Below are positions 26,418 through 59,548 of a stretch of 64,000 bases of DNA, one piece after another. The translations under genes and the position numbers were made by a program. The DNA is from Actinomycetota bacterium (GTDB lineage Bacteria; Actinomycetota; Acidimicrobiia; IMCC26256; PALSA-555): assembly GCA_016870355.1 (NCBI GenBank), contig VGBR01000006.1, positions 1 through 64,000 of the forward strand, given 5' to 3'. Every line of letters starts with the position of its first letter. The first letter of the stretch is position 1. The notes under the pieces were generated by a model that worked only from the letters and a program-made list of their open reading frames with translations, searched no databases and was not told where the DNA came from.

Positions 26418-27846
26418 ATGAGCGTTCCCCGCACCGTTGACGAGCACCTTGGGGTGCTCGAACGTGGGCTCCAGCCGCGAGCCGCGGAGCCCAAACGCGT
26501 GATCGTGGTCGGCGCTGGCATGGCAGGTCTCGTGGCCGCCTCGGAGCTCTTGCGAGCCGGGCATGACCCGGTCGTTGATCGAAGCGCAGCAACGGGTCGG
26601 TGGGCGAGTGCTCACCCTGCGCGAGCCGTTCGCACCCGGGCTGTGGGCCGAGGCGGGTGCGATGCGCATCCCGCGCTCGCACCGGCTGACGATGGCGCTG
26701 ATCGAGCGGTACGGCCTCGCGACGCGGCCGTTCACCATGGACAACCCCGAGGCCTACTGCTACTTCTGCGGCAGGAAGGTGAAGCACTCCGATGTCGCGG
26801 GCGACCCGACTGCGCTCGGGTTCGAGGTCGTCGATCACGAGCGGATGCCGCCGTCGCAGCTCTGGAGCACCGAGCTCGAATCCTTTGCCGCCCGGTTGAA
26901 GGACGAGGGCGACGACGCGTGGCTCGCCATCGCCGCGGAGTACGACCAGTGCGCGGTACGCGAGTTCCTCGAGATGCGCAACTGGTCCGAGGGCGCAATC
27001 GAGATGTTCGGTCTTCTGTTCAACCAGGAGGCGCTCATGAACTCCTCGTTCCTCGAGCTTCTCCGTGAAGAGCTCGGTGGCTACTACACCGACCTCGTCT
27101 ACCTCGATGGCGGGACCGACATGCTCCCGCGTGCGTTCCTTCCCGAGCTGAGTGACCGCATCCGCTTCGGGTCGAAGATGGTCGCGCTCGATCAGTCGAC
27201 GAACGACGTCACCGTGCACTACAAGACCGCCGCTGGGAAGTTCTCGGTGACCGGTGACTACGCGATCCTCACCACACCGTTCCCGGTGCTGCGTCACGTC
27301 GACGTGCTCACGCCGTTCTCACGACTCAAGCAGCGCGCGATCCGCCAACTGCACTACGACGCGTCGGCGAAGGTCTTCCTCCAGTTCCGCCGCCGCTTCT
27401 GGGAAGACGACGACGGCATCGTGGGCGGCGGCACCGTGACCGACCTCGCCGTGCGCAACGTGTACTACCCCGACCACGGTCGTCCGACCGGACGGGGTGT
27501 GATGCTCGCGAGCTATACGTGGAGTGAGGACGCGCAGCGGTGGGGGTCGTTGTCGGCGGAGGATCGAATCGTGCAAGCGCTCGAGGACGTGACCCGTATC
27601 CACCCGCAAGCCGCTGACGAGTTCGAGGTCGGCGCATCGAAGATGTGGCACGACGACGAGTTCGCCGGTGGGGCGTTCGCGCTGTTCGATCCGGGCCAGC
27701 AGACACTGCTGTATGACGCGATCGTCGCGCCGGAGGGTCGCGTGCACTTCGCCGGCGAGCACGCCTCCCTCGCGCACGCTTGGATCCAAGGTGCCATCGA
27801 GCCGGGCGTCCGTGCCGCGGCCGAGATCCACGAGCGAGCCGCGTGA
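26418..27846 (+). pseudogene. flavin amine oxidase with one frameshift
   Basis: Frame 1 from ATG 26418 gives the FAD-binding start (RVIVVGAGMAGLVAASELLRAGHDPVV). Near 26577 the reading must shift by one base to continue as IEAQQRVGGRVLTLREPF...GLWAEAGAMRIP and on to the C-terminal flavin motif GRVHFAGEHASLAHAWIQGAIEPGVRAA. Without the shift only 26563-27846 (427 codons, lacking the FAD fingerprint) is readable. Sequence is otherwise fully conserved for the monoamine/L-amino-acid oxidase superfamily. It would oxidise amines or amino acids, fitting the adjacent amine-producing genes. The indel is either real or an error. Confidence 0.75.
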
Positions 27847-29405
27847 TGGCGCCGCCCACCTCACAGCAGGCTCCGCGCGGCATCGCCACCTGGACTCGGA
27901 CCGAACCCGATCGGGTGGCGTTCTACAGCGACGACGAGACCCGTACCTACGGCGAGCTGGATGCGCGCTCGACCCGTCTCGCGCACGCCCTTGCCGCGCT
28001 CGGGGTTGCCGCTGAAGACCGGGTCGCGATCATGCTCCCGAACTCGATCGAGTTCTTCGAGACATGGCTCGCTGCCAGCAAGATCGGCGCGTCCGTCGTG
28101 CTCGTGAACTGGCACCTCAAGTCCGACGAGCTCGCATACATCCTCGAGGACTCGGGTGCGAAGGCGCTCGTCTCGCATCGAGATCTCGCGCCGCAACACC
28201 AACCCGCCCTCGAGGCAACGGGCGCCGAAGCGATCATCGTCGGGCAGGGCGGCGGGCGCGACTACGAGGAGGCGATCGACAAGGCGCCGCAGGCGCCATT
28301 GGAGAGAGAGGTGGAGGCGCTCATCGCTCCCGTCTTCTACACCTCGGGCACGACCGGTCGACCCAAGGGTGTGATCCACGGTTTGGCCGCGCTTGCGCCA
28401 TCAGCGGCTGCGGCGATGATCGAGGGCCAGGTCGCGCTCTGGAGCTGGACCTCCGACGACGTCTACATCTGCTCGGGTCCCGCGTACCACGCCGGTCCTG
28501 GAGGCTGGACGATGGCCGCGCTCTACGTCGGCGCGCCGACCGTCATCCTGGCGATGTTCGACGCGTCGGAGTGGCTGCGGCTTGTCGAGCAGCACCGCGT
28601 CACCTGCAGCTTCATGGTGCCGGCCCACTTCATCCGCATCCTCGAAGTACCTGAAGCGGAGCGTGCCGGCCGTGACCTCTCGTCCTTGCGCCTGCTCGTG
28701 CATGCGGGCGCGCCATGCCCGATTCCGGTCAAGCGCAAGATCATCGAAGCGCTCCCGTGTGAGATCTCCGAGCTCTACGGCGCGAGCGAAGGTGGCGCGA
28801 CCCGCATCACGTCGGCCGAGTGGCTCGAGCGACCGGGAAGCGTCGGCACGCCGTGGCCGGGCGTCGAGGTGCACATCCTCGACGACGAAGGCACGCCGGT
28901 CCCGACAGGGGAGCAGGGCATCGTCTACATCCGCCCGCCGGGCGAATCGCGGTTCCACTACCACGACGACCCGAACAAGACCGCCGAGGCCTGGCGCGAC
29001 CAGGGCTTCACCGTCGGAGACGTGGGCTACCTCGACGACGCCGGTTACCTGTTCCTCACCGATCGGGCGTCCGACATGGTGATCCGCGGCGGGGTGAACA
29101 TCTACCCGCGCGAGATCGAAGAGGTGCTCTACACGCACCCCGCGGTCGTGGACTGTGCCGTCTTCGGCGTTCCCGACGATCGGCTCGGCGAGCAGCTGCA
29201 CGCGGTCGTGGAGGTGCGCGCCTCCTTGTCGGGAGTGCCGACGACGCCCCACGAGCTGCGCGCGCACTGCGTCGAGCACCTGGCCGACTTCAAGGTGCCG
29301 AAGGACATCGAGCTCGTCGACGAGCTGCCGCGTCAGCCCAACGGCAAGGTGCTGAAGCGCTTGCTGCGCGACAAGTTCTGGGAGGGCCGCACCACGCGCA
29401 TTTGA
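27846..29405 (+). CDS. AMP-dependent acyl-CoA synthetase/ligase
   Basis: A 519-aa ANL ligase. It has FYTSGTTGRPKGVIHG (P-loop), ELYGASEGGATR, TVGDVGYLDDAGYLFLTDRASDMVIRGGVNIYPREIEE (A8 hinge) and PRQPNGKVLKRLL with the catalytic Lys. It activates a carboxylate to its CoA ester. ATG 27846 shares its first base with the amine oxidase stop (TGATG), so the ligase may act on an acid derived from amine oxidation, via the aldehyde, or on an unrelated acid. Its TGA abuts the stop of the convergent acyl-CoA dehydrogenase with no spacer. Confidence 0.9.
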   Translation: MAPPTSQQAPRGIATWTRTEPDRVAFYSDDETRTYGELDARSTRLAHALAALGVAAEDRVAIMLPNSIEFFETWLAASKIGASVVLVNWHLKSDELAYILEDSGAKALVSHRDLAPQHQPALEATGAEAIIVGQGGGRDYEEAIDKAPQAPLEREVEALIAPVFYTSGTTGRPKGVIHGLAALAPSAAAAMIEGQVALWSWTSDDVYICSGPAYHAGPGGWTMAALYVGAPTVILAMFDASEWLRLVEQHRVTCSFMVPAHFIRILEVPEAERAGRDLSSLRLLVHAGAPCPIPVKRKIIEALPCEISELYGASEGGATRITSAEWLERPGSVGTPWPGVEVHILDDEGTPVPTGEQGIVYIRPPGESRFHYHDDPNKTAEAWRDQGFTVGDVGYLDDAGYLFLTDRASDMVIRGGVNIYPREIEEVLYTHPAVVDCAVFGVPDDRLGEQLHAVVEVRASLSGVPTTPHELRAHCVEHLADFKVPKDIELVDELPRQPNGKVLKRLLRDKFWEGRTTRI

Positions 29406-30407
29406 TCACCGCTCGAACAGCAGCTCGGCGAGCCGGTCATGGTGCCAGCGCGCCGTGCCGAGCCAGTACTCGGACGCGAGCGCTCGACGGAAGTACAGGT
29501 GGAGATCGTGCTCCCACGTGTACCCGATGCCGCCGTGTACCTGCGCGGCGTCCTTGGTGGCGCGCATCGCCGCGGTGCCGGCCGCGGCCTTGGCCACATG
29601 GACGGCGCGGAAGCGCTCGGCATCACTGGCGTCGAGGGTCATGCCCGCGTACTGGACCGCCGCGATGGAGCGCTCCACGGCGAGTGAGCACTCGGCCAAC
29701 CGGTGCTGGATCGCCTGGAACGAGCCGATCGGCACGTCGAACTGGATTCGCTCCTTGGCGTAGGCGATCGCCATGTCGAGCAGGCGACGCGACGTCCCGA
29801 CCATCTCCGCCGCGAGCGCGCCCGTCGTGTGGGCGACGACGTCGTCGAACGCCGCAGGATCGAGTGCCAAGGTGTCGCTTTTCACGTTGGCCGTGTCCAC
29901 CTCGAAGTGACGTCGCGAGAAGTCGACGAGGCGCGTCTGGCGGAGGGCGACGTCTCCGGCCGGGATGATGCGCACCTTCGGTCCGGTGTCGACCACCGCG
30001 ACCCAGTCGACCCGGTCGGCCTCGGGCACAAAGGTCTTCACTGGCTCGTCGTTGGGCACGAAGTGACCGTCGGCGCCGGCCAGCGCGACCGTTCCGGTGG
30101 CCTCACCAGCCAGGACGCTCGGCAGCAGCTCGTGATCGAGCGCCTGGAGCAACGGAGCGAACATCGCGACGGTTGGGAAGAACACACCCGGCGCGGCGAC
30201 GTAGCCGGTCTCCTCGACGAACAGGAACAGGTCCGACGCGGGTCCGTCACCGAGCGCGGTGAAGTCGCTCAGCTTGCTCCAGAGCGCATCGGCCACCGTC
30301 ACGTCATCGACATGCGCCCGTACCAGGGAGGCTGGGCACTCCTTGGCGAGCATCGTGCGCGCGGTGTCGCGCAAGAGGACCTGATCATCTGACAACGAGA
30401 AGTCCAT
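29406..30407 (-). CDS. acyl-CoA dehydrogenase (short, beta-like subunit)
   Basis: 333 aa, shorter than canonical (about 380), because the beta-domain middle is reduced. It opens MDFSLSDDQVLLRDTARTMLA and has KERIQFDVPIGSFQAIQHRLAE and DAAQVHGGIGYTWEHDLHLYFRRA near the C-terminus. Paired with the 395-aa dehydrogenase 112 bp upstream on the same strand, it resembles the alpha/beta heteromeric acyl-CoA dehydrogenases of actinobacterial steroid catabolism (FadE/ChsE pairs). It is preceded by a structured intergenic repeat. Confidence 0.88.
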   Translation of the reverse strand: MDFSLSDDQVLLRDTARTMLAKECPASLVRAHVDDVTVADALWSKLSDFTALGDGPASDLFLFVEETGYVAAPGVFFPTVAMFAPLLQALDHELLPSVLAGEATGTVALAGADGHFVPNDEPVKTFVPEADRVDWVAVVDTGPKVRIIPAGDVALRQTRLVDFSRRHFEVDTANVKSDTLALDPAAFDDVVAHTTGALAAEMVGTSRRLLDMAIAYAKERIQFDVPIGSFQAIQHRLAECSLAVERSIAAVQYAGMTLDASDAERFRAVHVAKAAAGTAAMRATKDAAQVHGGIGYTWEHDLHLYFRRALASEYWLGTARWHHDRLAELLFER

Positions 30408-30519: not shown

Positions 30520-31707
30520 TCATGAACGGGGGAGCCCGAGGACGCGCTGGGCGATGATGTTGCGTTGGATCTCCGATGAGCCGCCCGCGATCGTGTTGGC
30601 GAAGCTCATGAAGAAGTAGTTCGTCCAGCGGCCGTTCTCTTCGCCTCGTTCGGGATCCGCCACGAGCCCGTATGCACCTTGGAGCTGCATGCCGTACTCG
30701 CACGCGGCCTTGCCGATCTCGGACGTAGCCATCTTCATGTATGAGTGCTCGGGCGCCGACGAGCCCTGCGCGAACGACGCGAAGCCCTTGTAGCCGAGCG
30801 CCCGGAGCGACGATGCCTGCTCGTACATGGTGGCGATGTCGCGCCGGACGGCGGCGTCCTGGTCGAGCCCACGACGGCGGGCAACCTCGATCAACCCGCT
30901 CACGGTCGCGTCGAGTCGGCAGACGCCTTCGACCCACAACCCGGCGCGTTCGTGCGCGAGCGACCCCTGGGTGATGCGCCAGCCGTCGTTCACCTCACCC
31001 ACGATGTTCTCGGCCGGAACCTCCACGTCGGTGAAGAACACCTCGGCGAAGTGCGCGGCCCGGCTCAGGTGGCGAAGTGGCCGAACCTCGATGCCCGGCG
31101 TGTCCATGTCGACGATGAGGAGGCTGATGCCCTTGTGCTTCGGCGCGTCGGGATCAGTGCGCACGTACACGAAGCACTTCTGGGCGACCATCGCGTAGCT
31201 GGTCCACACCTTCTGGCCGTTGATGATGAAGCGGTCGCCGTCGCGTGTGGCACGGGTCTGGAGGCCGGCGAGGTCGGACCCCGCGTTCGGCTCGCTCATC
31301 CCGATGCACCAGATGGTGTCGCCACGCACGGCTGCGGGCACGAGCCTCTTCTGCTCGTCGTTGCCGAACTCGAGCAGGCTCGGCGACACGATCCCGTAGC
31401 CGGGGTAGTGGAACGAGCGGAGCACGCGTCGGCGGGCCAGCTCCTCGAGGTACACGAGCGTCTGCACGAGCGTGGCGTTGCGGCCACCGAGCTCCGGTGG
31501 GTACGCCGGGATCATCCAGCCGTGATCGAACAGCGTGGCTTGCCACGCGCGCGCCCAAGCCGGAACAACCTCACCCGACTCGTCGGTGTCGCCGGCTTCT
31601 CCTGCGTAATCGAAGCCGCGCTCGAACTCGGGCGGCGTGTGCTCGTCGAGGAACGCGCAGAGCTCCTCGTGGAACGTGACCTCTTCTTCGCCCCAGGCGA
31701 GGTGCAT
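30520..31707 (-). CDS. acyl-CoA dehydrogenase (alpha-like subunit)
   Basis: 395 aa from ATG 31707. It has HDHGWMIPAYPPELGGRNATL-type N-domain sequence, IGMSEPNAGSDLAGLQTRA, DGDRFIINGQKVWTSYA and the C-terminal SFANTIAGGSSEIQRNIIAQRVLGLP. It is a full-length FAD-containing acyl-CoA dehydrogenase. With the shorter paralogue downstream it probably forms a heteromer. It is followed upstream by an SDR with a 17-nt gap, giving an operon SDR, dehydrogenase alpha, dehydrogenase beta. The substrate is unresolved. Confidence 0.9.
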   Translation of the reverse strand: MHLAWGEEEVTFHEELCAFLDEHTPPEFERGFDYAGEAGDTDESGEVVPAWARAWQATLFDHGWMIPAYPPELGGRNATLVQTLVYLEELARRRVLRSFHYPGYGIVSPSLLEFGNDEQKRLVPAAVRGDTIWCIGMSEPNAGSDLAGLQTRATRDGDRFIINGQKVWTSYAMVAQKCFVYVRTDPDAPKHKGISLLIVDMDTPGIEVRPLRHLSRAAHFAEVFFTDVEVPAENIVGEVNDGWRITQGSLAHERAGLWVEGVCRLDATVSGLIEVARRRGLDQDAAVRRDIATMYEQASSLRALGYKGFASFAQGSSAPEHSYMKMATSEIGKAACEYGMQLQGAYGLVADPERGEENGRWTNYFFMSFANTIAGGSSEIQRNIIAQRVLGLPRS

Positions 31708-31724
31708 CGGTTCTTCGCGAGGGC

Positions 31725-32636
31725 TTAGGGAGCAGCGAGCAAGAACGGCGGGATGCCGGGGTCGCCGCCTGCGAGGAGCTCGTCCTTGACGGCGTCGATC
31801 GATTCGATCGTCCACGAGCCATCGCTCTTGACGTTCGAGATCGGCCGCCAGCCCTGCACGATCTGCAGGAGGCCGCCTTGGATCTTGAGCACCTGACCGT
31901 TGACTCCCTCGGACAGATCAGAGGCCAGCCAGGCCACGCCCGCGGCGACGTTGGAAGGGTCGAGCGCGGCGCGCATCTTCTCGTCGGCCTGGCCGCCCAT
32001 CAGGTCCTCGGTCAGCCGCGTGAGCGCAACCGGTGCGATCGCGTTCGCACGGACGCCGAAGCGCTCGAGCTCGCGGGCCAGCACGATCGTCATGGCCGCG
32101 ATGCCGGCCTTTGCGGCCGCGTAGTTCAGCTGACCCGCGTTGCCGTAGAGGCCTGCCTCGGAGGACGTGTTGACGATCTTGGCGTTCACCGACGCGCCGT
32201 CGCTGTCCTTGCTCTTCTGCCGCCAGTAGGCACCGGCGAACCGGCTCGGGCAGAAGTGGCCCTTGAGGTGGACCTGGATGACCGCGTCCCACTCCTCCTC
32301 GGTCATGTTGAAGCTCATCTTGTCCCTGAGGATCCCGGCGTTGTTGATGAGGATGTCGAGCCCGCCGAGCTCCTCGATCGCCTGGTTGACGATCGACTCG
32401 CCGCCCTTCCAGGTGGAGATGTCGTCGAAGTTGGCGACCGCCTTGCCGCCAGCCCGCTCGATCTCGTCGACGACCTCCTGTGCAGGAGCCTTGTCGGCAC
32501 CTTCGCCATCTCGGCTCCCGCCCACGTCGTTCACGACGACCGCCGCGCCCTGCTTCGCGAGCAGCAGTGCTTCCTCGCGCCCGAGCCCTCGGCCCGCACC
32601 GGTGACGATCGCAACCTTGCCGTCGAACAGTGCCAT
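31725..32636 (-). CDS. SDR dehydrogenase of the MFE-2/HSD17B4 type
   Basis: 303 aa from ATG 32636. VAIVTGAGRGLGREEALLLAKQGAAVVVNDVGGSRDG is the typical start of the (3R)-hydroxyacyl-CoA dehydrogenase part of peroxisomal-type multifunctional enzyme 2. NNAGILRDKMSFNMTEEEWD, VNTSSEAGLYGNAGQLNYAAAKAGI (catalytic Tyr-x3-Lys) and the unusual PISNVKSDGSWTIESID tail agree. Likely role: oxidation of 3-hydroxyacyl-CoA in a beta-oxidation cycle with the neighbouring dehydrogenases and crotonase. Confidence 0.88.
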   Translation of the reverse strand: MALFDGKVAIVTGAGRGLGREEALLLAKQGAAVVVNDVGGSRDGEGADKAPAQEVVDEIERAGGKAVANFDDISTWKGGESIVNQAIEELGGLDILINNAGILRDKMSFNMTEEEWDAVIQVHLKGHFCPSRFAGAYWRQKSKDSDGASVNAKIVNTSSEAGLYGNAGQLNYAAAKAGIAAMTIVLARELERFGVRANAIAPVALTRLTEDLMGGQADEKMRAALDPSNVAAGVAWLASDLSEGVNGQVLKIQGGLLQIVQGWRPISNVKSDGSWTIESIDAVKDELLAGGDPGIPPFLLAAP

Positions 32637-33003
32637 TCCTGATCCCATTCCTCTGTGTCTCGGACCTGCGGTCGCTGCGCCCGCGGCTCCGCTGTCGTTC
32701 CTGACGTGGACGTCAGAGACTATCGACGGACGCCGCGCGAGGTGAATCCGCGCTCGGGTGCGATCGCAACCGGTGCGGCGTGGGCACCGCGCGCCCGCGT
32801 GTCGCTCTGAAGTTTTCAACGAGCTGGTGGGCAAGCAGTGACGGTGACCACCGCCGTCGGTGTTCCGGCCAGGCGTCGACCGATGGGCTCAGGGTCCTCG
32901 GGCGAGCTCGTCGCGGTGCACGAGGTGCAGTCCGTCGGGTTGCTCGGGATCGCCGACGAGCCGTAGGGGCCATGGGGCTCGTACATCGGGTGACACCACT
33001 TGC

Positions 33004-33782
33004 AGATGCCGACGACGAACCCCGCGATGAAGGATGTCAGCGGGTGCTCGTAGACCTCCGCCGGGGTGCCGATCTGCGCGATGCGCCCCTCGTTGAACAC
33101 CGCCAGCGATCGCTCATCGTGAGCGCCTCTTCTTGGTCATGGGTGACGTAGATGAAGGTGATGCCCACCTCTCGCTGGATCGACTTCAACTCGACCTGCA
33201 TCGCCTGGCGCAGCTTGAGGTCGAGTGCGCCCAGGGGCTCGTCGAGGAGGAGCAGGCTCGGCCGGTTCACCAGCGCTCGAGCGAGCGCAACCCGTTGCCG
33301 TTGCCCACCTGAGAGCTCGGACGGCTTGCGATGGCGAAGGCGTCGAGGTGCACCATGCACAGCGCATCATGGACGCGTTCGTCCCGCTCGGCGCTCGGAA
33401 CCCGCCTGACGAGCATGCCGTAGCCGACGTTGCGTCGGACGTCCATGTGCGGGAACAGCGCGTAGTCCTGGAACACCGTGTTCACGTCCCGCTCGTACGG
33501 CGCGCGTCGGGTCACGTCCTCGCCGCGGAGCAGGACGCGCCCGGCCGTCGGCTTCTCGAACCCGGCGATCATGCGCAGGCACGTGGTCTTGCCGGAGCCG
33601 GAGGGTCCGAGCAGCGAGAAGAACTCGCCTTCTCGGATCTCGAGATCGACGTCGTCGACGGCCATGACCTTGCCGAACTGCTTGCTGACGTGGTCGAGGT
33701 GGACCGCCGCTGTCGACGACCGCGCGGACGCGCTGGCCGTCTGGTCGGCTTCGGACGTGCGGATCCCTGTCGCTGCGCTCAC
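33004..33782 (-). pseudogene. decayed PotA-like ABC transporter ATPase
   Basis: Three frames are needed. From GTG 33782: Walker A (LLGPSGSGKTTCLRMIAGF) through VFQDYALFPHMDVRRNVGYGM to VHLDAFA. After a missing C near 33335: [37 protein letters not shown] with signature and Walker B, to [13 protein letters not shown]. After another missing base near 33110: [27 protein letters not shown]. The C-terminal TOBE region is absent and no permease or binding-protein genes adjoin. This is the ATP-binding subunit of a spermidine/putrescine-type importer, most simply a relic. Confidence 0.75.
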
Positions 33783-33956
33783 CGTCCCCCGGTCCAATCG
33801 TCGCTGGCGGCACGGTATTCGCCGTTCAGGAGCGCGTGCCGTCAGCAATCCGTTGTCGACCCCCGACGCGGCGACGGAATCCACGCTCTTGGGGCGGGGT
33901 CCGCTTCAGGCTGCGGTGGGGGCTGTGCCGAGCACCCGCAGGAGCAGCCGCCGGTG

Positions 33957-34754
33957 TCACCCACCCGAGAATCGGGCGTCGCGCTTCTCCTTGAACGCGG
34001 CCATGCCTTCGGCCAGGTCGGCCGAGGTGGCGGCGAGGGCCTGGAAGGAGCCTTCGAGGTCGAGCGAGTGTGCCAGGTCGGTCTCGAAGGTGGCGTTCAA
34101 CAGCTGCTTGGAGAGCCCGAGGGCGCGCGTCGGCCCGCTGGCGAGGCGCGCCGCCAGCGCTTCGGCCGCGGCGGCGAGCTCGTCGGGCGCGACGCACTTG
34201 TAGGCCAGCCCGAGCTCGACCGCCTCGGCGCCCTTCGCCCCCTCACCGAGCAGGATCATCGCCTTCGCGCGCGGCAGCCCGACGAGGCGCGGCAAGAGGT
34301 AGGCGCCGCCCGCATCGGCGACGAGCCCGATCTTCGAGAACGACCACAGGAAGCGGGTCTCGTCGTGCACGAGCACGAAGTCGCAGGCGAGCGCGAGGTG
34401 CGCGCCCGGGCCCACCGCGGCGCCGTTCACCGCCGCGACGGTCGGCTTGTCGAGCTCCCACAGCTCGCGGATGAACGTCTGCACACCGATGCGCAGCGCC
34501 TCTGCCGTGGTGCGGTTGTTGAAGCCGGGTTCCGACACGTTGGCCAGCGTCGACGCGCTGAGGTCCATGCCCGCGCAGAACGCGTCACCGGCACCCGTGA
34601 CGAGCAGCGCACGGACGTTGTTGTCACCCCGAGCTGATCGAACGGCGTCGACGATGGCGTCGCGCATCTCGACCGTGAGCGCGTTCTTCGCTTCTGGTCG
34701 GTCGAGCGTGATGCGGCCGACGCGGTCGGCGCCGACCTCGTAGCGAATGGTCAC
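33957..34754 (-). CDS. enoyl-CoA hydratase/isomerase (crotonase family)
   Basis: A 265-aa crotonase-fold protein. RITLDRPEAKNALTVEMRDAI, LLVTGAGDAFCAGMDLSA (first oxyanion-hole loop) and KPTVAAVNGAAVGPGAHLALACDFVL (second loop) are typical. The catalytic Glu position of classical hydratases falls in the segment FSKIGLVADAGGAYLLPRLVG, where Asp and Ala replace the usual Glu-Gly pattern, so isomerase or other crotonase chemistry is possible. The thiolase gene lies 13 nt upstream; they appear to be one operon. Confidence 0.88.
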   Translation of the reverse strand: MTIRYEVGADRVGRITLDRPEAKNALTVEMRDAIVDAVRSARGDNNVRALLVTGAGDAFCAGMDLSASTLANVSEPGFNNRTTAEALRIGVQTFIRELWELDKPTVAAVNGAAVGPGAHLALACDFVLVHDETRFLWSFSKIGLVADAGGAYLLPRLVGLPRAKAMILLGEGAKGAEAVELGLAYKCVAPDELAAAAEALAARLASGPTRALGLSKQLLNATFETDLAHSLDLEGSFQALAATSADLAEGMAAFKEKRDARFSGG

Positions 34755-34767
34755 GGGCGTAGACCGG

Positions 34768-35946
34768 TCAGGGCTTCTGGTTGGTGAGGATGTTCACCAC
34801 CGAGACGCCGGAGCCGCGTCCACCGACGTTGTGCTGGAGCGCGTACCCGTTGCGCATCTCGACCTGTCGCGCTTCTGCCTCACCGCGCAGCTGCCACCAG
34901 CACTCGGTGAGCTGCGCGACTCCCGTTGCGCCGATCGGGTGCCCTTTGGCGAGCAGCCCGCCGGAGGTGTTGATCGGGATGCGACCCGTGAGCGAAGTCT
35001 CGCCGTCCAGCGACGCCACGCCGCCCTTGCCCTTGTCGACGAACCCGAGGTCCTCGATGTCGAGGATCTCGGTGATCGTGAAGCAGTCGTGGACCTCGGC
35101 CATGTCGACCTGTGACGGCTCGATGCCGGCCATCTCGTACGCGCGTTCGGCGGCCATCTGCGTGGCCTTCAGCGAGTTGTAACTCGTCTTCTCGTGCAGG
35201 TACGGGTGGTCGGTCGCGACACCGAAGCCAGCCACGTACACCGGCTTGTCGGTGAACTGCTCGGCGCGCTCGGCGCTCACGAGGATCGCGGCCGCGGCGC
35301 CGTCGGTCTGCGGGCAGCAGTCGAGCAGGTGAAGTGGGTGGCACACCGGCACCGAGTTGATGACGTCCTCGATCGTGATCTCGTTCTGGAAGTGCGCGTA
35401 CGGATCGAGCGCACCGTTGTGGTGGTTCTTGACCGCCACCGACGCCAGCATCTCTCGCGTCGTACCGAAGTCGTGCATGTGACGGGTCGCGAACGGTGCG
35501 AAGAGCACGGGGGCGGTCTCGCCCCTGGTGAAGATCGGGTGCCCCGACGCGGCCCGCGAGAGCAGACCTTCTTCGGTCGACTTGTCGCGCATCTTCTCGA
35601 CGCCGATGACGAGCACGACGTCGTGGACACCACTTGCGACGGCCATCGCCCCGATGCGGAAGGCGTCGGACCCTGAGGGGCAGGCATTCTCGACGCGCGT
35701 GCACGGGATGCCAGAGAGCCCGATGGCCGAGGGGATCGTGTTGCCACCGATGCCTTCTTGTCCCCACAGCGTGCCGCGCTGGGTGGCGACGATCGCGGCT
35801 TCGACCTGTGCGGGCTCGAAGCCGAGGTCGACGTTGTCGGTCGCGGCCGAGAACGCGTCAGCGGCCATCTGCTCGTAGCTCTGCTCGAACAGCTCCCCGA
35901 ACTTGATGAGGCCGGCGCCGACGACGGCGACTCGGTTCCAGGCCAT
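34768..35946 (-). CDS. thiolase (SCP2/acetyl-CoA acetyltransferase type)
   Basis: A 392-aa thiolase-fold protein. Cys89 in RVENACPSGSDAF is the acyl-accepting nucleophile. EVHDCFTITEILDIEDL, INTSGGLLAKGHPIGATGVAQ (catalytic His) and NVGGRGSGVSVVNIL complete the active site. It can cleave 3-ketoacyl-CoA or condense two acyl-CoAs. Its ATG directly abuts the TAG of the HMG-CoA-synthase-like/DUF35 fusion gene (no intervening base). This arrangement matches the archaeal thiolase-DUF35-HMG-CoA synthase complex. Confidence 0.9.
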   Translation of the reverse strand: MAWNRVAVVGAGLIKFGELFEQSYEQMAADAFSAATDNVDLGFEPAQVEAAIVATQRGTLWGQEGIGGNTIPSAIGLSGIPCTRVENACPSGSDAFRIGAMAVASGVHDVVLVIGVEKMRDKSTEEGLLSRAASGHPIFTRGETAPVLFAPFATRHMHDFGTTREMLASVAVKNHHNGALDPYAHFQNEITIEDVINSVPVCHPLHLLDCCPQTDGAAAAILVSAERAEQFTDKPVYVAGFGVATDHPYLHEKTSYNSLKATQMAAERAYEMAGIEPSQVDMAEVHDCFTITEILDIEDLGFVDKGKGGVASLDGETSLTGRIPINTSGGLLAKGHPIGATGVAQLTECWWQLRGEAEARQVEMRNGYALQHNVGGRGSGVSVVNILTNQKP

Positions 35947-37380
35947 CTATCCCATCCCTTCGGCGTCGCCGTCGACCTCGATCGGGCTCCCGGCGCGACG
36001 CGCCTTGTAGCCGTACACCGGCACGCCGCGCTCGTGTGCGTACTTGCGCAGCACGAGCTCGACGTCGCTGCCGACCTCGAGGTCGGAACCGTCGCCCACC
36101 ACCTGGAGCATCACCCGCGCGCCGTCGTCGAGATCGATGATCGCGAGGGGCAGCGGTGCGACGAACGGTGCGGGCATGGTGTGGTTGACCACGTAGGTGT
36201 GGACGCGACCACGCCGGGCGAGCGGTGTGAGCACGAACTTGGCGCTCCCGCACGACGTGCAATGGGGGTGGATAGACGGGGGCGTGTTGATCGTGCCGCA
36301 GTCGACGCAGCGGGCGCCCATGAGACCGAGCATCTCGTCGGCGCCGCGCACGAACTGCGCGCTCTCGGGGGGTACGGCCATCTGCACCGTCTCACCCGAA
36401 GCGACCAGCTGGTTGCGGGCGCGCAGCACCTCCGCATACGCGACCGGCTTCCCGGCGGTGATCGTGTGCGCGACGGTCGCTGCGCCACGTACCGGTGACT
36501 TCACGTTGACCTCGAGACCGGTGGCGCGTCCGCCACCCCAACCGACCATCGCGACGGTTCCGGCTGCGTCGAGGGCGCCGATGCCGCCCAGGATGGCGGC
36601 CGCAGCACCGGTGTCGCCGAGCTCGGTGTACACCGCGTCGGATGCGGGTGCCGCGGCGCCGATCTGCTTCGCGACGACGCCGCCCAATCGCCCGTCGGGG
36701 TCGGGGAGCGACCAGGCGCGCACGTCGAGCGCGGCGAGCTGCTCGCCGAGCTCACGCATGGTCGGCACGAACACCTCCTCACGGAACAAGCGGGCGTCGT
36801 AGAGGTCGCGGGTGCCGGCTTCGTTGTCGCCGCGGTACCGGTCGAGGAAGGGAAACGTGCGAGTGACGCGTGCGCCGATCGATGCGTCGCCACCGTGCGA
36901 CACGAGCACGACGGCTGCCGCGCCCGCTCCGGCGCGTGCCTCGTACGGTGTGCCCAGGCCGGGGACGATCGCATCCGACACCACCACGAGCGCCACGCGT
37001 GCCGAACCGGCCCCGATCGCGTCGGCCGCGCCGAGGAGCGCCTCCATGCCCGAGTGCGGGGAACCGGAGCACAGCGCGCCGCTCGAACGGTGTGAGAGTC
37101 CGATTGCTCGTGCCAGCACGGCATGGCTCGGGCCTTCGGCGAACGGTGGGCGAGAGGTGCCCCACCACAACCCGTCGACGATGTCGGTCTGGAGCTCGGA
37201 GGCGGCGAGCGCCCGACCTGCGGCCTCAGCCGCGAGGGTAAGGACGTCTTCATCAGGGGCGCAGACCGCGGACTGACCCTTGCCGCCCTTGCGGCCCCAG
37301 GCCGCGGCGGCATCAGCAGCTCGGAGGCGCCACGCGGGCGCGGCCGCGCCGACAGCCAGGAGCTGCACCCCGGGGGTCAC
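35947..37380 (-). CDS. HMG-CoA-synthase-like condensing enzyme fused to DUF35 OB-fold domain
   Basis: A 477-aa two-domain protein. Residues about 1-330 are a thiolase-superfamily condensing enzyme with a candidate nucleophile Cys104 (SSGALCSGSPHSGMEALLGAA). Residues about 345-465 are a DUF35 module: zinc ribbon CVDCGTINTPPSIHPHCTSCGS, then an OB-fold (VHTYVVNHTMPAPFVAPLPLAIIDLDDG). In archaea, separate HMG-CoA synthase and DUF35 proteins assemble with thiolase to channel acetoacetyl-CoA. Here two of the three are fused, and the thiolase gene follows without a gap. GTG 37380 is 8 nt after TAGCAT. Confidence 0.85.
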   Translation of the reverse strand: MTPGVQLLAVGAAAPAWRLRAADAAAAWGRKGGKGQSAVCAPDEDVLTLAAEAAGRALAASELQTDIVDGLWWGTSRPPFAEGPSHAVLARAIGLSHRSSGALCSGSPHSGMEALLGAADAIGAGSARVALVVVSDAIVPGLGTPYEARAGAGAAAVVLVSHGGDASIGARVTRTFPFLDRYRGDNEAGTRDLYDARLFREEVFVPTMRELGEQLAALDVRAWSLPDPDGRLGGVVAKQIGAAAPASDAVYTELGDTGAAAAILGGIGALDAAGTVAMVGWGGGRATGLEVNVKSPVRGAATVAHTITAGKPVAYAEVLRARNQLVASGETVQMAVPPESAQFVRGADEMLGLMGARCVDCGTINTPPSIHPHCTSCGSAKFVLTPLARRGRVHTYVVNHTMPAPFVAPLPLAIIDLDDGARVMLQVVGDGSDLEVGSDVELVLRKYAHERGVPVYGYKARRAGSPIEVDGDAEGMG

Positions 37381-37443: not shown

Positions 37444-38610
37444 CTACTTCTTCTTCGGGACGTAGATGCCGATGCCGTCGGGGAAGGCGAGACCGTCGGC
37501 CATCACCTCGGGCGGTTGCGGCTCACCGTCGACGAACGTGATCCGGAAGACCCGGCCCGTGCCGTCGCCCGGACCGATGCGGGTGCCGTCGATCACGATG
37601 CCGATGTCGGCGAAGTAGATGGTGCCGTCGGGCGCGACTCCCATGCCGAGGGGCGTCCCGGTCGAGATGCGCTCCGGACCGAGCCCCTCGCCCGCGGGTG
37701 GACGCAGGATCGTGCGCACGAACTGCCCGTCGGCGTCGTACTCGTTGATCAGGCCGTTGGCCACGCTCGCCACGTACCAGCCGCCGTCACCGGTCGGCGC
37801 CAGGCCGTTGGGCGTCGCGAGCTCGTTCTCGGTGGTGATGAACTTCTCCTTGGTGACGCTGTCGGCCATCGGCGCGCCGGTGCTGTCGGTCTGGCCGCAC
37901 CCGCCTTCGGCGTCGTCCGATGTCGGGAACGGTCCCGTGTACCGAGTTACGCCGGTGGTCGCGCCGCGCGCCGAAGAAATGAGGATGCGGTCCTCGTCGT
38001 CGATCTGGATGCTGCCCGCGGTGCCGATCGCGATGTCGAGCTTGCAGAACGGCACGTCGCCGTTCGTGCCGTTCGATCCGTCGTCGAGCTCCTCGAAGCC
38101 CGCGGTGAACGGCGGGAACCAGATGATGAGCTGACCGTTCTCGGGCCCGCTGGCCTGGTTGCCGATGTCGCTGGTCACGACCCGGCCGTCGGAGAGGATC
38201 CCGCAGCCGTAGTTCTCGGCGTTGTCGCTCGCGCCTTGGTAGGTCGGCTGGAGCTTGCCGATCTGCTTGGTCTTGAGCTTGCCGACCTTCGTGCCCTTCA
38301 TCTTGAAGATGCCCCATCCCTGGACCGGATCGGGCTGGCCGGTGTCTTCGCCGGCGATGAACGTCTTGCCGTCGGGGAAGAAGCAGATCTGCGCGTTGAT
38401 GTCACGGCCGTTCGGATCCTCGCTGTGGTTCTGGATCACGAGCTGGTGCTTGAACGGCTCGTTGCCGGTGTAGGCGTCGAGGTCGTTGCCTTGACCGTTG
38501 AGCACGATCACGCCCGCACCGGGGTCGTCCTGTCCCGACCACGCCGGCGACACGGCGAGAGCGGTGACCAACGCCGTCGTGAGCACGAGCATCAGCACTG
38601 CACGCTTCAT
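37444..38610 (-). CDS. exported beta-propeller-like (SMP-30/NHL-type) protein
   Basis: 388 aa from ATG 38610, with AAGGAGAAGC as ribosome site. Residues 1-26 are a signal peptide. The mature part has repeated blades (ATPNGLAPTGDGGWYVASVANGLINEYDADG, PLGMGVAPDGTIYFADIGIV, GRVFRITFVDG, DGLAFPDGIGIYVP) typical of calcium-binding lactonase-like or NHL propellers. It overlaps the upstream PQQ-propeller gene by ATGA, so both are secreted from one message. The substrate is unknown. Confidence 0.75.
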   Translation of the reverse strand: MKRAVLMLVLTTALVTALAVSPAWSGQDDPGAGVIVLNGQGNDLDAYTGNEPFKHQLVIQNHSEDPNGRDINAQICFFPDGKTFIAGEDTGQPDPVQGWGIFKMKGTKVGKLKTKQIGKLQPTYQGASDNAENYGCGILSDGRVVTSDIGNQASGPENGQLIIWFPPFTAGFEELDDGSNGTNGDVPFCKLDIAIGTAGSIQIDDEDRILISSARGATTGVTRYTGPFPTSDDAEGGCGQTDSTGAPMADSVTKEKFITTENELATPNGLAPTGDGGWYVASVANGLINEYDADGQFVRTILRPPAGEGLGPERISTGTPLGMGVAPDGTIYFADIGIVIDGTRIGPGDGTGRVFRITFVDGEPQPPEVMADGLAFPDGIGIYVPKKK

Positions 38611-40556
38611 TGCTTCTCCTTGTCCTTCTTGCTCTTGCCGGCGGTCGGCACGAACGCCGGGCTGAACGACTTGGTGGTGACGAGACGGTCGAAGCCCTGT
38701 GCGATCTCGGGGAGCGCGTCGGAATCGGTGATCGCGAGGATCGAGATGCGGCTGTACGCGGCGCCTGGGCGCGGCAGCGCCGACGAGTCGCACGAGCCGG
38801 AGTCGTCGAGCACGCACAGCAGGCCACCCTGGGGCTGGTCGTCGCTCTCGGAGATGAACACGCCGAAGCGCGTCGCGCCGTCGGCGGCGGCGGGGCTGCC
38901 GGCGCGCAACCAGCTCTCCGGGTCGCCGAGGCCGGTGGTCTTGATCGTGATCTTCCAGGGATCGAGCGTCATGTGGAAGGTGGCCGTGGGTGACGAGCCC
39001 GCGGGCGGCTCCTTCAAGTCGAAGCTGACGTTGCACGGCGCACTCACGCATTGGGGCACGGCACCCTTGAGCGTGGTCGCAGTCGGCCCGGCCTTGGTGT
39101 CCTGGGTCGTGCTCGTGACTGGCTTCCCGGTCGGGGAGAACAGGTACACGCCGCTCGTGCGGCTGCGGTTGTCCAGACCGGGTTCGCGGATCCCCGCGAC
39201 TGCGACCACGTCGTCGTCGACGATCGCCGCGCCTCCCGACACTGCGCCGCTCACCTCTTCGCTCCACAGCACGTCGCCGGTCGCCAGCTCGAGTGCGCGG
39301 ATGGTGAAGTCAGTCCCGCCGCTGATGAGCACGCCGTTGGCGACGGCCGCGGCGCCATACGTCGCAGCGGCCTCGTCTTGTTGCCAGATGATCTCGCCGG
39401 TCGTCGAGTCCATCGCGTGCAGGAACGGCGAACCGCCCACCGCGGTGCCGCCGGCAATGACGCCGTCGGCGAAGGCGGTCGGGCCGATGAACCCACCGGT
39501 CGAGAAGTTGCTCCCCGGCTCGGGAAGGCCGGGCTCGGCGGCTTTGGTGCTCCACACCAGCTCGCCCGTGGCGCGATCGACCGCGTAGTAGACGCCGTCC
39601 TTGTTGCCCAGGCCGACGAGTGCGCGACCGTTCGCCTCGAACAGGTTCGGCGCGCCGGCGAAGTCGAAGTCGTCTTGGTTCTCCTCGTGCGGCTGGTACG
39701 ACCACGCGACCGAGCCGTCGTCCAGGTTCAACGCGACCATCGCCTCGGCGAAGCGGCCCCACCCGTCGTCGGTCACGCAGTTGCCAGTGCCGACGAACAC
39801 GAGGCGCAGCTCGAGGTCGACGGTCGGCGACCCCCACACGTCGGCACACCCGCTGCCGGTCGCGCCTTCGCCCTCGGTAGGCGCGAGCACGGTCGTCCAC
39901 ACCTCGTCACCGGTCGCGGCATCGACAGCGAGCACGCCGGCCGGACGACCGCTCGGGTCGTTGTGCACGTCCCAGCCGACGATGACGAGGTTCTCCACCA
40001 CGACCGGTGACGACTCGATCTCGGAGTAGTCGGCGCCGTCGCCCGGCGCTCCGATCTCGTGCTGCCACGTGAGCTTGCCGTCCTTGGCCCGCAGCGCGTA
40101 GAGCGACTTCCCGCCACCGAAGAACACCGTGCGCACGTCGTCGACGACCTCGACCGCAGCCGACGACACGATCTGACCCGCGTACACGCGCGGGTGCGGC
40201 GTGGTCTTGTAGACCCAGCGCTTCTTGCCGTTGGATCGCTTGAGTGCGTAGAAGCGGCCAGCCCAGTCGCCGACGTAGACGGTGTTGTCGACGACGGCGG
40301 GCGTGGCGGTCACCACGTCATGAGTGTTGAAGAACCAGATCCGTCGCAGATCCCTGGCGCTCGACGCGTCAAGGCCGGGGCACTCGGTGGCGAAGCTGCG
40401 CTCGATGACCCGTCCCCACATCGGCCAGTCGCACTCGTCGGCGGGGGAGTCGACCGCGCGGCGCGCGGCGAGCACCGTCGACGCCGGCACCAAGCACGTG
40501 GCGAGCACGGCGAGCACGATCAGGCTGCCCGCGGTGCGCTTCCCCCCGAGACCCAC
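38607..40556 (-). CDS. exported PQQ-type beta-propeller protein
   Basis: 649 aa from GTG 40556, with TACGAT 7 nt upstream (leaderless). Signal peptide residues about 1-31. Repeated WD-like blades with the quinoprotein W motif follow: DWAGRFYALKRSNGKKRWVYKT, SLYALRAKDGKLTWQHEIGAP, DGVYYAVDRATGELVWSTKA, SPFLHAMDSTTGEIIWQQD, DFTIRALELATGDVLWSEEV. A carboxy-terminal region of about 170 residues holds two cysteine pairs. It may be a PQQ-dependent alcohol dehydrogenase-like enzyme or a non-catalytic PQQ-fold sensor; dedicated haem motifs (CxxCH) are missing. Confidence 0.82.
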   Translation of the reverse strand: MGLGGKRTAGSLIVLAVLATCLVPASTVLAARRAVDSPADECDWPMWGRVIERSFATECPGLDASSARDLRRIWFFNTHDVVTATPAVVDNTVYVGDWAGRFYALKRSNGKKRWVYKTTPHPRVYAGQIVSSAAVEVVDDVRTVFFGGGKSLYALRAKDGKLTWQHEIGAPGDGADYSEIESSPVVVENLVIVGWDVHNDPSGRPAGVLAVDAATGDEVWTTVLAPTEGEGATGSGCADVWGSPTVDLELRLVFVGTGNCVTDDGWGRFAEAMVALNLDDGSVAWSYQPHEENQDDFDFAGAPNLFEANGRALVGLGNKDGVYYAVDRATGELVWSTKAAEPGLPEPGSNFSTGGFIGPTAFADGVIAGGTAVGGSPFLHAMDSTTGEIIWQQDEAAATYGAAAVANGVLISGGTDFTIRALELATGDVLWSEEVSGAVSGGAAIVDDDVVAVAGIREPGLDNRSRTSGVYLFSPTGKPVTSTTQDTKAGPTATTLKGAVPQCVSAPCNVSFDLKEPPAGSSPTATFHMTLDPWKITIKTTGLGDPESWLRAGSPAAADGATRFGVFISESDDQPQGGLLCVLDDSGSCDSSALPRPGAAYSRISILAITDSDALPEIAQGFDRLVTTKSFSPAFVPTAGKSKKDKEKQ

Positions 40557-56963: not shown

Positions 56964-57377
56964 GTGACCAGACAAGGAGTGCGCTTCGACGTCCCGTCGC
57001 CCGACAACGACACCCGCGAGTACTGGGCTGGGGCACACGACCGCAGGCTGCTCATCCAACGGTGCACGGCCTGCGGAAAGGCCTTCTTCTACCCGCGGCC
57101 GTTCTGTCCGAAGTGCTGGAGCGAGGACGTTGCCACCGAAGAAGCATCCGGCGAGGCAACCCTCTATACCTGGTCTGTCGTGCACGTGAACGACCTGCCG
57201 CCGTTCCACGAACGGGTGCCCTATGTGGCGGCGATCGTCGATCTCGTCGAGGGCCCGCGGATGATGACCAACGTCGTCGACTGCGACTTCGACGCGCTGC
57301 GCGTCGGCATGGCGCTGCGGGTCGCGTACCGGGAGCTCACCGACGACGTCACCGTGCCGGTGTTCGCACCGGCATGA
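56964..57377 (+). CDS. DUF35 zinc-ribbon/OB-fold protein
   Basis: 137 aa from GTG 56964; start uncertain, with GTG 56979 also possible. QRCTACGKAFFYPRPFCPKCWSED is the zinc ribbon, followed by the OB-fold YTWSVVHVNDLPPFHERVPYVAAIVDLVEG. DUF35 proteins bind thiolase-like or aldolase-like partners and channel acyl-CoA. It ends in ATGA overlap with the CMD gene. A second DUF35 lies 440 bp downstream. Confidence 0.85.
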   Translation: MTRQGVRFDVPSPDNDTREYWAGAHDRRLLIQRCTACGKAFFYPRPFCPKCWSEDVATEEASGEATLYTWSVVHVNDLPPFHERVPYVAAIVDLVEGPRMMTNVVDCDFDALRVGMALRVAYRELTDDVTVPVFAPA

Positions 57378-57718
57378 CCCACCGCGAAGACTGGAGCTTC
57401 CCGTTCGAGGGACCGCTGCACGAGGTCTTCCCCGCGCTGCATGAGTCGCAGAACGCGTGGATGAGCCAGATCGACTCCCTCAGCGCTCCCGACCGCAAGA
57501 CCCACGAGCTGATCCGACTCGTGTGCCTCGTGATCCTTCGCAACCCGCCGGGCGTCGAGCGTCACGCCCGCCTGGCGCGCGAGGTTGGCGCGTCGTGGAA
57601 CGAGGTGATGGGCTCGATCTTGTTGACGTGCCCCGGCTTCGGGCTGCTGCCCGCAGTGGAGGCGATCCCGCACGCGCGGCGCGGCTTCGACGCCGCACCC
57701 GAACCCGAGGACGGATGA
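57374..57718 (+). CDS. carboxymuconolactone decarboxylase-like (AhpD-fold) protein
   Basis: 114 aa. LIRLVCLVILRNPPGVERHARLAREVGASWNEVMGSILL follows the CMD helical layout (helices with the basic His/Arg region), but no CxxC redox motif is present, so it is not a peroxidase partner of AhpC. It could be a hydrolase/decarboxylase-type member. It is embedded between two DUF35 genes by overlap, implying a role in the same acyl-CoA pathway. Confidence 0.78.
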   Translation: MTHREDWSFPFEGPLHEVFPALHESQNAWMSQIDSLSAPDRKTHELIRLVCLVILRNPPGVERHARLAREVGASWNEVMGSILLTCPGFGLLPAVEAIPHARRGFDAAPEPEDG

Positions 57719-57728
57719 TCATGCCAAC

Positions 57729-57802
57729 GGACCTGCGGAGCGAGTGGAGCGGATGAAGTGAGCGAAGCGAACGGAAGTAGCGGAGCGGGAGCGGAGCAAA
57801 GG
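57729..57802 (+). repeat. dispersed intergenic repeat, family 1 copy A
   Basis: Between CMD and the second DUF35 gene. It starts CGGACCTGCGGAGCG and ends GGAAGTAGCGGAG, GGGAGCGGAGCAAAGG. The end is 11 nt from ATG 57814, and the purine-rich tail could serve as ribosome-binding site. Confidence 0.75.
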
Positions 57803-57813
57803 GAGGAGGACTG

Positions 57814-58248
57814 ATGTCCACGACGACGGGCGAGTCCCCGTTCCGGATCATGCCGGCGGTCACCGACCGCAACCGGCACTTCTGGACCGGTGGCAAGGAC
57901 GGCGAGCTGCGGTTCCAGCGCTGCAAAGGGTGTGGTTACTTCCTACACCCACCGGCAGTGATCTGCCCGAAGTGCTGGTCGAAGGACATCGGGATCGAAG
58001 CAGTGTCGGGGCGCGCCGAGGTGCTCACGTTCTCGGTGAACGTGCAGAACTGGATGCCGGGGCTCGAGCCGCCGTTCGTGCTCGCGATCGTCGGCCTGCC
58101 TGAGCAGGACGACCTTCGCCTGACCACCAACATCGTGAACTGCGATCCCTACGAGGTGACCATCGGGATGCCGGTCCAGGTCATCTTCGAACCGCACCCC
58201 GATCAAGAGGTGTGGCTCCCGCTCTTCGAGCCGGTCACCAAGCCATGA
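57814..58248 (+). CDS. DUF35 zinc-ribbon/OB-fold protein
   Basis: 144 aa. QRCKGCGYFLHPPAVICPKCWSKD is the zinc ribbon (four Cys), then LTFSVNVQNWMPGLEPPFVLAIVGLPEQD and a beta-rich OB-fold. The aldolase-type thiolase gene follows with only an intergenic repeat between. In steroid-degrading actinobacteria the DUF35 subunit (ChsH2 part) docks onto Ltp2 and is needed for activity, so this is its likely partner. Confidence 0.88.
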   Translation: MSTTTGESPFRIMPAVTDRNRHFWTGGKDGELRFQRCKGCGYFLHPPAVICPKCWSKDIGIEAVSGRAEVLTFSVNVQNWMPGLEPPFVLAIVGLPEQDDLRLTTNIVNCDPYEVTIGMPVQVIFEPHPDQEVWLPLFEPVTKP

Positions 58249-58256
58249 CGTTCTTC

Positions 58257-58330
58257 AAGACCTGCGGAGCCAACGGAGCGAATGGAGTGAACGGAGTGAG
58301 CGGAAGTAGCGGAGTGGGAGCGGAGCAAAG
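58257..58330 (+). repeat. dispersed intergenic repeat, family 1 copy B
   Basis: It holds CCTGCGGAGCCAACGGAGCG, then GGAGTGAACGGAGTGAG, GGAAGTAGCGGAG and GGGAGCGGAGCAAAG, ending at GTG 58331 with no spacer. Over its last 50 nt it matches copy A almost base for base. Confidence 0.75.
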
Positions 58331-59548
58331 GTGAGTGAGGCAACAGATCTCATCGGTGAGCGGCGTGCCGTCGTCAGTGGCGCGGGACAGTCCGACATCG
58401 GGCGGCGGCTCTTCCGCGATCCGCTCGAGCTGACCCTCGACGCGTGCCTCGCCGCGATCGAAGACGCCGGGCTCACCACCGCCGACATCGACGGGCTGTC
58501 CACGTACCCGGGCGCGTTCGGGCCGGGCGGGTTCTCCGGCGGCGGGATGGTCGACGTCCACGACGGGCTGCGCTTCGAGAACATCCAGTGGTTCTGTGGC
58601 GGGGTCGAGTTCCCCGGCCAGCTCGGTGCGGTGATCAACGCCGCGCTCGCGGTGTCGGCCGGACTCTGCAAGCACGTGCTTGTGTGGCGCAGCGTCTGGG
58701 AAGGCAGCGCGCAGGGCACGGGCGGACGTGCGGCCGTGATGCCTGGGGGCGGGGGTTCGGGGTCGTTCAAGGCGAGCGGGTTCATGGAGTGGGTGCTGCC
58801 GTTCTCGGCACCGTCCGCAGCCACGTGGATCGCGATGTTCGCCCAGCGTCACTTCCACGAGTACGGCACCACGAGGGAGCAGCTGGGACAGATCGCCGTC
58901 AACTCGCGCAAGAACGCGGGGTTGAACCCGAAGGCGATCTACAGCGAGCCGATGTCGATGGACGACTACCTGTCGGCGCGGATGATCTCGACGCCGCTGT
59001 GTCTGTTCGACTGCGACGTACCGTGCGACGGCGCGACCGCGTTCATCGTGTCCCGCGCGGACACCGTGGCCGATCTCCGGAAGCCGCCGATCAACATCGA
59101 AGCGGTGGCCACGGCGTTGCACGGTCGTCCCTCGTGGGACCAGTACCACGATCTCACGTCCATGCCGGCGCAGGACGCAGGCAAGGAGCTGTGGAAGCGG
59201 ACCGACCTCAAGCCGACCGATGTCGACGTCGCCAACATGTACGACGGCTTCTCGTTCATCACCGTTGCTTGGATCGAAGGGATGGGATTCTGCAAGAAGG
59301 GTGAAGCCGGCGCGTTCCTCGAGGGCGGGCACAACATCGCGCGCGACAGTGGCGTGCTGCCGCTCAACACCAACGGTGGCCAGCTGTCGGCGGGTCGTCT
59401 GCACGGCTTCGGGTTCTTGCACGAGTCATGCGTGCAGCTGTGGGGCGAAGCCGGCGAACGTCAGGTGCCCAACACCCCCGAGGTTGGCGTCGCCTGCGCC
59501 GGCGGCGGCCCCATGGCCGGTACGTTGCTGCTGACCCACCGCCGCTAG
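58331..59548 (+). CDS. Ltp2-like retro-aldolase of the thiolase superfamily
   Basis: 405 aa. Thiolase fold, but the nucleophile Cys motif (NACxS) is replaced by EFPGQLGAVINAAL and the usual GHPxGATG by LNTNGGQLSAGRLHGFGFLHE. The NTNGGQLS-x-GRLHG form is typical of Ltp2-type aldolases, which cleave the C17 side chain of steroids with DUF35 support. VANMYDGFSFITVAWIEGMGFC is the conserved C-terminal segment. It likely cleaves a tertiary beta-hydroxyacyl-CoA, not a 3-ketoacyl-CoA. Confidence 0.82.
   Translation: MSEATDLIGERRAVVSGAGQSDIGRRLFRDPLELTLDACLAAIEDAGLTTADIDGLSTYPGAFGPGGFSGGGMVDVHDGLRFENIQWFCGGVEFPGQLGAVINAALAVSAGLCKHVLVWRSVWEGSAQGTGGRAAVMPGGGGSGSFKASGFMEWVLPFSAPSAATWIAMFAQRHFHEYGTTREQLGQIAVNSRKNAGLNPKAIYSEPMSMDDYLSARMISTPLCLFDCDVPCDGATAFIVSRADTVADLRKPPINIEAVATALHGRPSWDQYHDLTSMPAQDAGKELWKRTDLKPTDVDVANMYDGFSFITVAWIEGMGFCKKGEAGAFLEGGHNIARDSGVLPLNTNGGQLSAGRLHGFGFLHESCVQLWGEAGERQVPNTPEVGVACAGGGPMAGTLLLTHRR

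Follow-up and report, generated by a model that had tools for sequence, protein, structure and literature searches.

A thiolase gene abutting an HMG-CoA-synthase-like/DUF35 fusion gene in Actinomycetota: a probable heteromeric degradative thiolase

Within the 64,000-nucleotide stretch of DNA analysed here (the window), which comes from a freshwater-type member of the Actinomycetota, a gene for a fusion of an HMG-CoA-synthase (HMGS)-like domain with DUF35 adjoins a gene for a thiolase on the minus strand, at positions 34768-37380. A sequence-only reading had proposed that the pair may be a two-gene version of the archaeal thiolase/DUF35/HMGS complex, put to a different reaction, and had stated that a catalytic cysteine is present in both proteins. 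The features of the pair are as follows.

35947-37380, minus strand: fusion protein of an HMGS-like domain (pseudoenzyme) and DUF35; 477 residues, GTG start
36376-37380, minus strand: HMGS-like domain, residues 1 to about 335; from the NF003274 match, the AF2 model match and the residue alignment
37057-37059, minus strand: codon of Pro108, at the position of the HMGS catalytic cysteine; from alignment to Cys114 of 6esq_I
37069-37071, minus strand: codon of Cys104, earlier taken as catalytic; variable in the orthologue alignment
36235-36324, minus strand: DUF35 zinc ribbon (zf-ChsH2) with Cys358, Cys361, Cys374 and Cys377; Pfam match, the four cysteines invariant in orthologues
36049-36225, minus strand: DUF35 OB fold (OB_ChsH2_C); Pfam match
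34768-35946, minus strand: SCP2-type thiolase, 392 residues, with Cys89, HDCF (286-289) and GHPIGATG (335-342)

The open reading frames, the domain matches and the orthologous loci, in 26 of 26 of which the thiolase follows the fusion directly on the same strand, bear out the proposed gene arrangement. The junction reads ...GGA TAG ATG GCC, with no base between stop and start, and the gap is between -4 and +13 nucleotides in all complete relatives; this shared arrangement indicates that the juxtaposition is not due to chance. The 26 loci include duplicates drawn from two collections (L017/L072, L018/L074 and L021/L081), and short contigs depress the counts for genes that lie farther along.

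An HMGS-like domain under selection that has lost its catalytic residues

The best NCBIfam relative of fusion residues 7-326 is the archaeal HMG-CoA synthase (NF003274, E 1.3e-25), with scores of 90.2 bits against a curated cut-off of 244 for this model and 41.8 against 353 for TIGR00748, the two archaeal-type models. An AF2 model of the fusion has the HMGS/KAS III fold, and its HMGS part superimposes on 6esq_I with a Z score of 37.6 and an rmsd of 2.6 over 318 residues; the model also matches the PhlA-type chain 9skh_A (Z 36.4), PhlA itself (5mg5_A, Z 35.1) and chains of MucABC. This model has a mean pLDDT of 70 from 13 sequences, and its DUF35 part is of low confidence and poorly covered by the PDB matches. 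The structure comparison refers to the fusion alone, as the thiolase model (pLDDT 34, few diverse sequences) was set aside. At the level of sequence, the closest PDB matches of the fusion are 9skh_A, the DUF35 protein ChsH2, and the archaeal DUF35 and HMGS chains.

In the HMMER alignment the catalytic Cys114 of the archaeal enzyme (6esq_I) falls on Pro108 of the fusion, while Cys104 lies four residues before the catalytic position, opposite a leucine of archaeal HMGS. The orthologues carry P, T, S or A at position 108 and C, F, T, H, L, M or S at position 104; this variability rules out Cys104 as a displaced nucleophile. The position of the archaeal Glu82 is occupied by Ser76, where GSESHPYA aligns with GTSRPPFA, and the archaeal histidine loop FHQPNGK is replaced by WSLPDPDGR. 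Loss of the glutamate and histidine applies to the window protein and its orthologues, and loss of the cysteine to every member sampled. No HMGS catalytic cysteine was found in about 68 distinct fusions from the window, its class, its phylum, Rhodococcus opacus and two haloarchaea (our own count, with records seen twice removed). These comprise, beyond the orthologues, 20 paralogous fusions of the class at about 25-33% identity, 17 further fusions from the class and from elsewhere in the phylum, and the fusions of R. opacus PD630, Natrialba magadii and Natrononativus amylolyticus. An active HMGS is ruled out by these losses. Since the adjacent thiolases retain Cys89, HDCF and GHP, the earlier statement that both proteins carry the catalytic cysteine is valid for the thiolase alone.

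The loss of catalytic residues has not been followed by decay. Measured against the nearest relatives, dN/dS is 0.07-0.20 for the HMGS part, 0.06-0.22 for the DUF35 part and 0.07-0.15 for the thiolase, and the mean pairwise identities among orthologues are 67%, 77% and 86%, respectively. The motifs RPPFAEGP, DRYRGD and PDPDGR are among those invariant across 13 fusion sequences. A decaying relic domain is ruled out by these values and motifs; the strong purifying selection points instead to a retained pseudoenzyme, like PhlA in the PhlABC acylase. The module is thus a recurring case of a catalytic domain without an active site that is strongly selected as the partner of a working enzyme.

The DUF35 part, the thiolase and the surrounding genes

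The C-terminal part of the fusion has the zinc ribbon and OB fold of DUF35 proteins of the ChsH2-like kind (PF01796/PF12172). The zf-ChsH2 match covers residues 353-382 and the OB_ChsH2_C match residues 386-444, both above the Pfam gathering score. In some paralogous fusions, L055 and L060 among them, the zinc ribbon cysteines are lost as well, while the rest of DUF35 is kept.

The thiolase carries a Thiolase_C_1 domain (Pfam, E 4e-43) and belongs to the SCP2-type subfamily PRK06064 (NF004720), scoring 433.9 bits against a cut-off of 420. Its Cys89, HDCF and GHP, which we take to be the nucleophile and the catalytic (acid/base) motifs, are kept in every adjacent thiolase whose sequence covers the motif regions. 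The closest solved structure is 6esq_A, the archaeal thiolase of the HMGS complex (E 5e-82); the E-values are 7e-74 for 7yvy_A and 1e-32 for the more distant PhlC. Association with DUF35 is the rule for thiolases of this type in the window's genome, where 16 of 17 lie no more than 3 kb from a DUF35 (against 0.65 expected). Another thiolase cluster lies elsewhere in the window, on the plus strand (region 57012-59548), where two DUF35 matches (57138-57329 and 58000-58188) precede a second SCP2-type thiolase at 58331-59548.

The pair is surrounded by the following genes of acyl-CoA metabolism.

33957-34754, minus strand: enoyl-CoA hydratase/isomerase (crotonase); directly after the pair in all 26 orthologous loci
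31725-32834, minus strand: SDR, probable 3-hydroxyacyl-CoA dehydrogenase (PRK07791, 376 bits, above the cut-off of 373); true start probably about 32633
30520-31815, minus strand: acyl-CoA dehydrogenase, PimC-like large subunit; true start probably about 31707
29406-30407, minus strand: acyl-CoA dehydrogenase, IpdE2/PimD-like small subunit; in 13 of 26 orthologous loci
27780-29405, plus strand: acyl-CoA ligase, convergent; in 10 of 26 orthologous loci

Together the hydratase, the SDR, the acyl-CoA dehydrogenase pair and the ligase are all the steps of one round of beta-oxidation. By automatic count an SDR lies near the pair in 22 of the 26 loci (the match in L088 is on the opposite strand) and the PimC-like dehydrogenase in 14 (that in L015 is a 49% match on the opposite strand); about half of the loci lack the dehydrogenase pair and ligase in this neighbourhood, in part because the contig ends. 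In R. opacus PD630 the neighbours of the pair (K2Z90_RS38920/38925) are a ring-hydroxylating dioxygenase, an AMP-dependent ligase, hydratases and an acyl-CoA dehydrogenase, and in N. magadii a 3-hydroxyacyl-CoA dehydrogenase and an acyl-CoA dehydrogenase.

The hydratase and SDR genes of the window are separated by a PotA-like ABC transporter ATPase (32816-33884, minus strand), broken into three open reading frames in different frames. No copy of it was found near the cluster in the 26 orthologous loci (E 1e-20), and it is either a recently inserted gene that has since decayed or an artefact of assembly.

Proposed function and its alternatives

We propose, with a probability of roughly 0.7, that the pair encodes one heteromeric degradative thiolase, in which the thiolase subunit catalyses and the fused dead-HMGS/DUF35 subunit serves as a non-catalytic scaffold and part of the pocket. 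The neighbouring ligase, acyl-CoA dehydrogenase pair, hydratase and SDR would make a 3-oxoacyl-CoA, which the thiolase would cleave with Cys89 as the acyl-enzyme nucleophile and HDCF and GHP as acid/base motifs. The DUF35 part would staple the fusion to the thiolase and line the entry for the acyl-CoA, and the HMGS-like part would act as a pseudoenzyme scaffold, a pocket wall or a CoA clamp, like PhlA in PhlABC; the complex would neither perform a second condensation nor channel an intermediate to HMGS. That the two proteins form a physical complex, and that the HMGS part scaffolds it or shapes its pocket, is suggested by analogy with related systems. The beta-oxidation neighbours favour thiolysis over condensation as the probable direction of the reaction, although a condensing role is possible, since synthesis is the direction in which both PhlABC and the archaeal complex work. 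The substrate may plausibly be a bulky acyl-CoA, either cyclic or aromatic.

The nearest counterpart in composition is PhlABC of Pseudomonas protegens (PDB 5M3K, 5MG5), which likewise combines an inactive HMGS-like subunit, a DUF35 subunit and an active thiolase-fold subunit. In this complex the key cysteine and glutamate are missing from PhlA and the residues of PhlC alone act, and both PhlA and PhlB are required for the active complex (PMC6392133). By residue loss and retention only, the window pair has the same make-up of a non-catalytic HMGS-like part, an active thiolase and DUF35. PhlABC, a heterododecamer, differs in being encoded by three separate genes of a biosynthetic operon and in C-acylating phenolics, whereas here the HMGS-like and DUF35 parts are one chain among beta-oxidation genes. 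MucABC of Streptococcus macacae (PDB 9VBO, 9VBT), which we know from its PDB titles, is a multicomponent acyltransferase whose HMGS-like chain has a matching fold; its components are separate chains.

A complex for biosynthesis or acyl transfer, similar to PhlABC and MucABC, in which the thiolase would acylate a carbon nucleophile in a Claisen or Friedel-Crafts type reaction on a scaffold of dead HMGS and DUF35, would account for a domain set and an HMGS residue loss equal to those of PhlA, and for the match of the fusion model to MucABC chains. We nevertheless consider it unlikely: the hydratase is present in all 26 orthologous loci, with more beta-oxidation genes in most, rather than polyketide or secondary-metabolite genes, and the thiolase is nearer to 6esq_A and 7yvy_A than to PhlC.

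In other systems DUF35 partners a thiolase-fold enzyme without a pseudoenzyme of this type. In the steroid aldolases DUF35 clamps the thiolase-fold enzyme and shapes the pocket, and the benzoylsuccinyl-CoA thiolase BbsAB is arranged alike (PMC12329534). BbsAB (PDB 7PXP) resembles our proposal as a thiolase with DUF35 that ends a beta-oxidation route, but it lacks an HMGS-like part, and the window proteins miss the NCBIfam equivalog cut-offs of BbsA and BbsB (41 of 250 and 195 of 750 bits). The aldolases Ltp2-ChsH2 and Sal-Shy (PDB 6OK1, 9MYR) share with the pair a thiolase-fold enzyme and a clamping DUF35 that forms one chain with another domain; in them, however, this domain is a hydratase, and Tyr/Cys residues carry out retro-aldol chemistry. 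IpfDE of ibuprofen degradation also brings a thiolase and an OB-fold protein together in aromatic breakdown, with no HMGS-like part reported (PMC11347016).

A retro-aldolase of this kind, acting as in steroid side-chain breakdown, would fit the shared thiolase and DUF35 arrangement and a genome that is rich in thiolase/DUF35 pairs and has one KshA_C-type oxygenase. It is nonetheless quite improbable as the function of the pair, as the aldolases use Tyr pairs or, in Sal, the motif YDCY (PMC12329534). The Tyr-based catalytic pair is absent from the window thiolase, which has HDCF instead; HDCF, Cys89 and GHP are intact in all members, and most loci include in their cluster an SDR that could produce the 3-oxo substrate. 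The oxygenase itself (KshA_C-type Rieske, E 1.2e-25) lies about 2 kb from another DUF35/thiolase pair (G000:C4:201938-205005, L094), hinting at breakdown of steroids or similar rings there.

A bifunctional two-gene complex, with thiolase and HMGS-like domain both catalytic and an intermediate channelled between them, has in its favour that the two proteins are clearly homologous to each of the three archaeal components, but it is scarcely credible: Cys-based HMGS chemistry is already refuted by the loss of the cysteine in all members and of the glutamate and histidine in the window protein and orthologues, by the variable Cys104 and by the low scores of the HMGS models. The archaeal complex (PDB 6ESQ, 6ET9) has all three domains in common with the pair and supplies the thiolase's best sequence match (6esq_A) and the HMGS part's best fold match (6esq_I); homology and synteny lend good support to a two-gene version of it that performs another reaction. 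Its HMGS, however, is an active enzyme of the mevalonate pathway with Cys114 and Glu82 in place, whereas here both residues are lost and two of the parts are fused. The likely model for the heteromeric degradative thiolase is PhlABC, with its active thiolase and inactive HMGS-like subunit, or BbsAB, and not the archaeal mevalonate complex.

Distribution of the module

The 13 close relatives in named genomes come from Acidimicrobiia or Actinomycetota assemblies. One of them (L013, CAMDCC010000013.1) is titled as a Bifidobacterium breve MAG; its cluster, at 90% identity, looks acidimicrobial, and the title looks wrong. Of 198 genomes of the window's class, 109 have at least a partial match to the fusion, whose close orthologues come mainly from the same order; a phylum-wide profile search found matches, mostly of full length, in 47 of 246 genomes. 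Three fusions of this type occur in the window's own genome, each with a thiolase near it. The same pair recurs in many actinobacteria and some haloarchaea, usually within breakdown gene clusters, and for this reason it looks like an undescribed form of a known enzyme complex. A 2010 paper (PMC2954200) had already pointed out fusions of DUF35 with thiolase-superfamily domains, as well as the active/inactive pair in phlABC. We found no account in the open-licence literature of the two-gene form of HMGS-DUF35 fusion and thiolase, of its spread or of its link to breakdown clusters; each single element is already known, and the fused two-gene form looks undescribed.

A broader proposal, which we put forward tentatively and on balance doubt, is that the emptied HMGS site has become, in actinobacteria and haloarchaea, part of an acyl-tail cavity for bulky 3-oxoacyl-CoAs, so that the modules would form a general two-gene class of pseudoenzyme-assisted catabolic thiolases with several paralogues per genome. 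The cultivable carriers R. opacus PD630 and N. magadii make the module testable.

In public annotation the R. opacus fusion is an 'OB-fold domain-containing protein' and the haloarchaeal ones are each a 'zinc ribbon domain-containing protein', all beside a thiolase. Such labels, next to 'acetyl-CoA acetyltransferase', mislead pathway reconstruction, and the module should not be read as a sign of an HMG-CoA synthase or of a mevalonate pathway.

Upstream of the fusion, on the same strand, the window encodes a secreted beta-propeller-like protein and a PQQ-type beta-propeller protein (38607-40556) within 37444-40556 (minus strand). By automatic count the PQQ-type protein is near the fusion in 6 orthologous loci, and a link of these proteins to oxidation of the substrate is possible.
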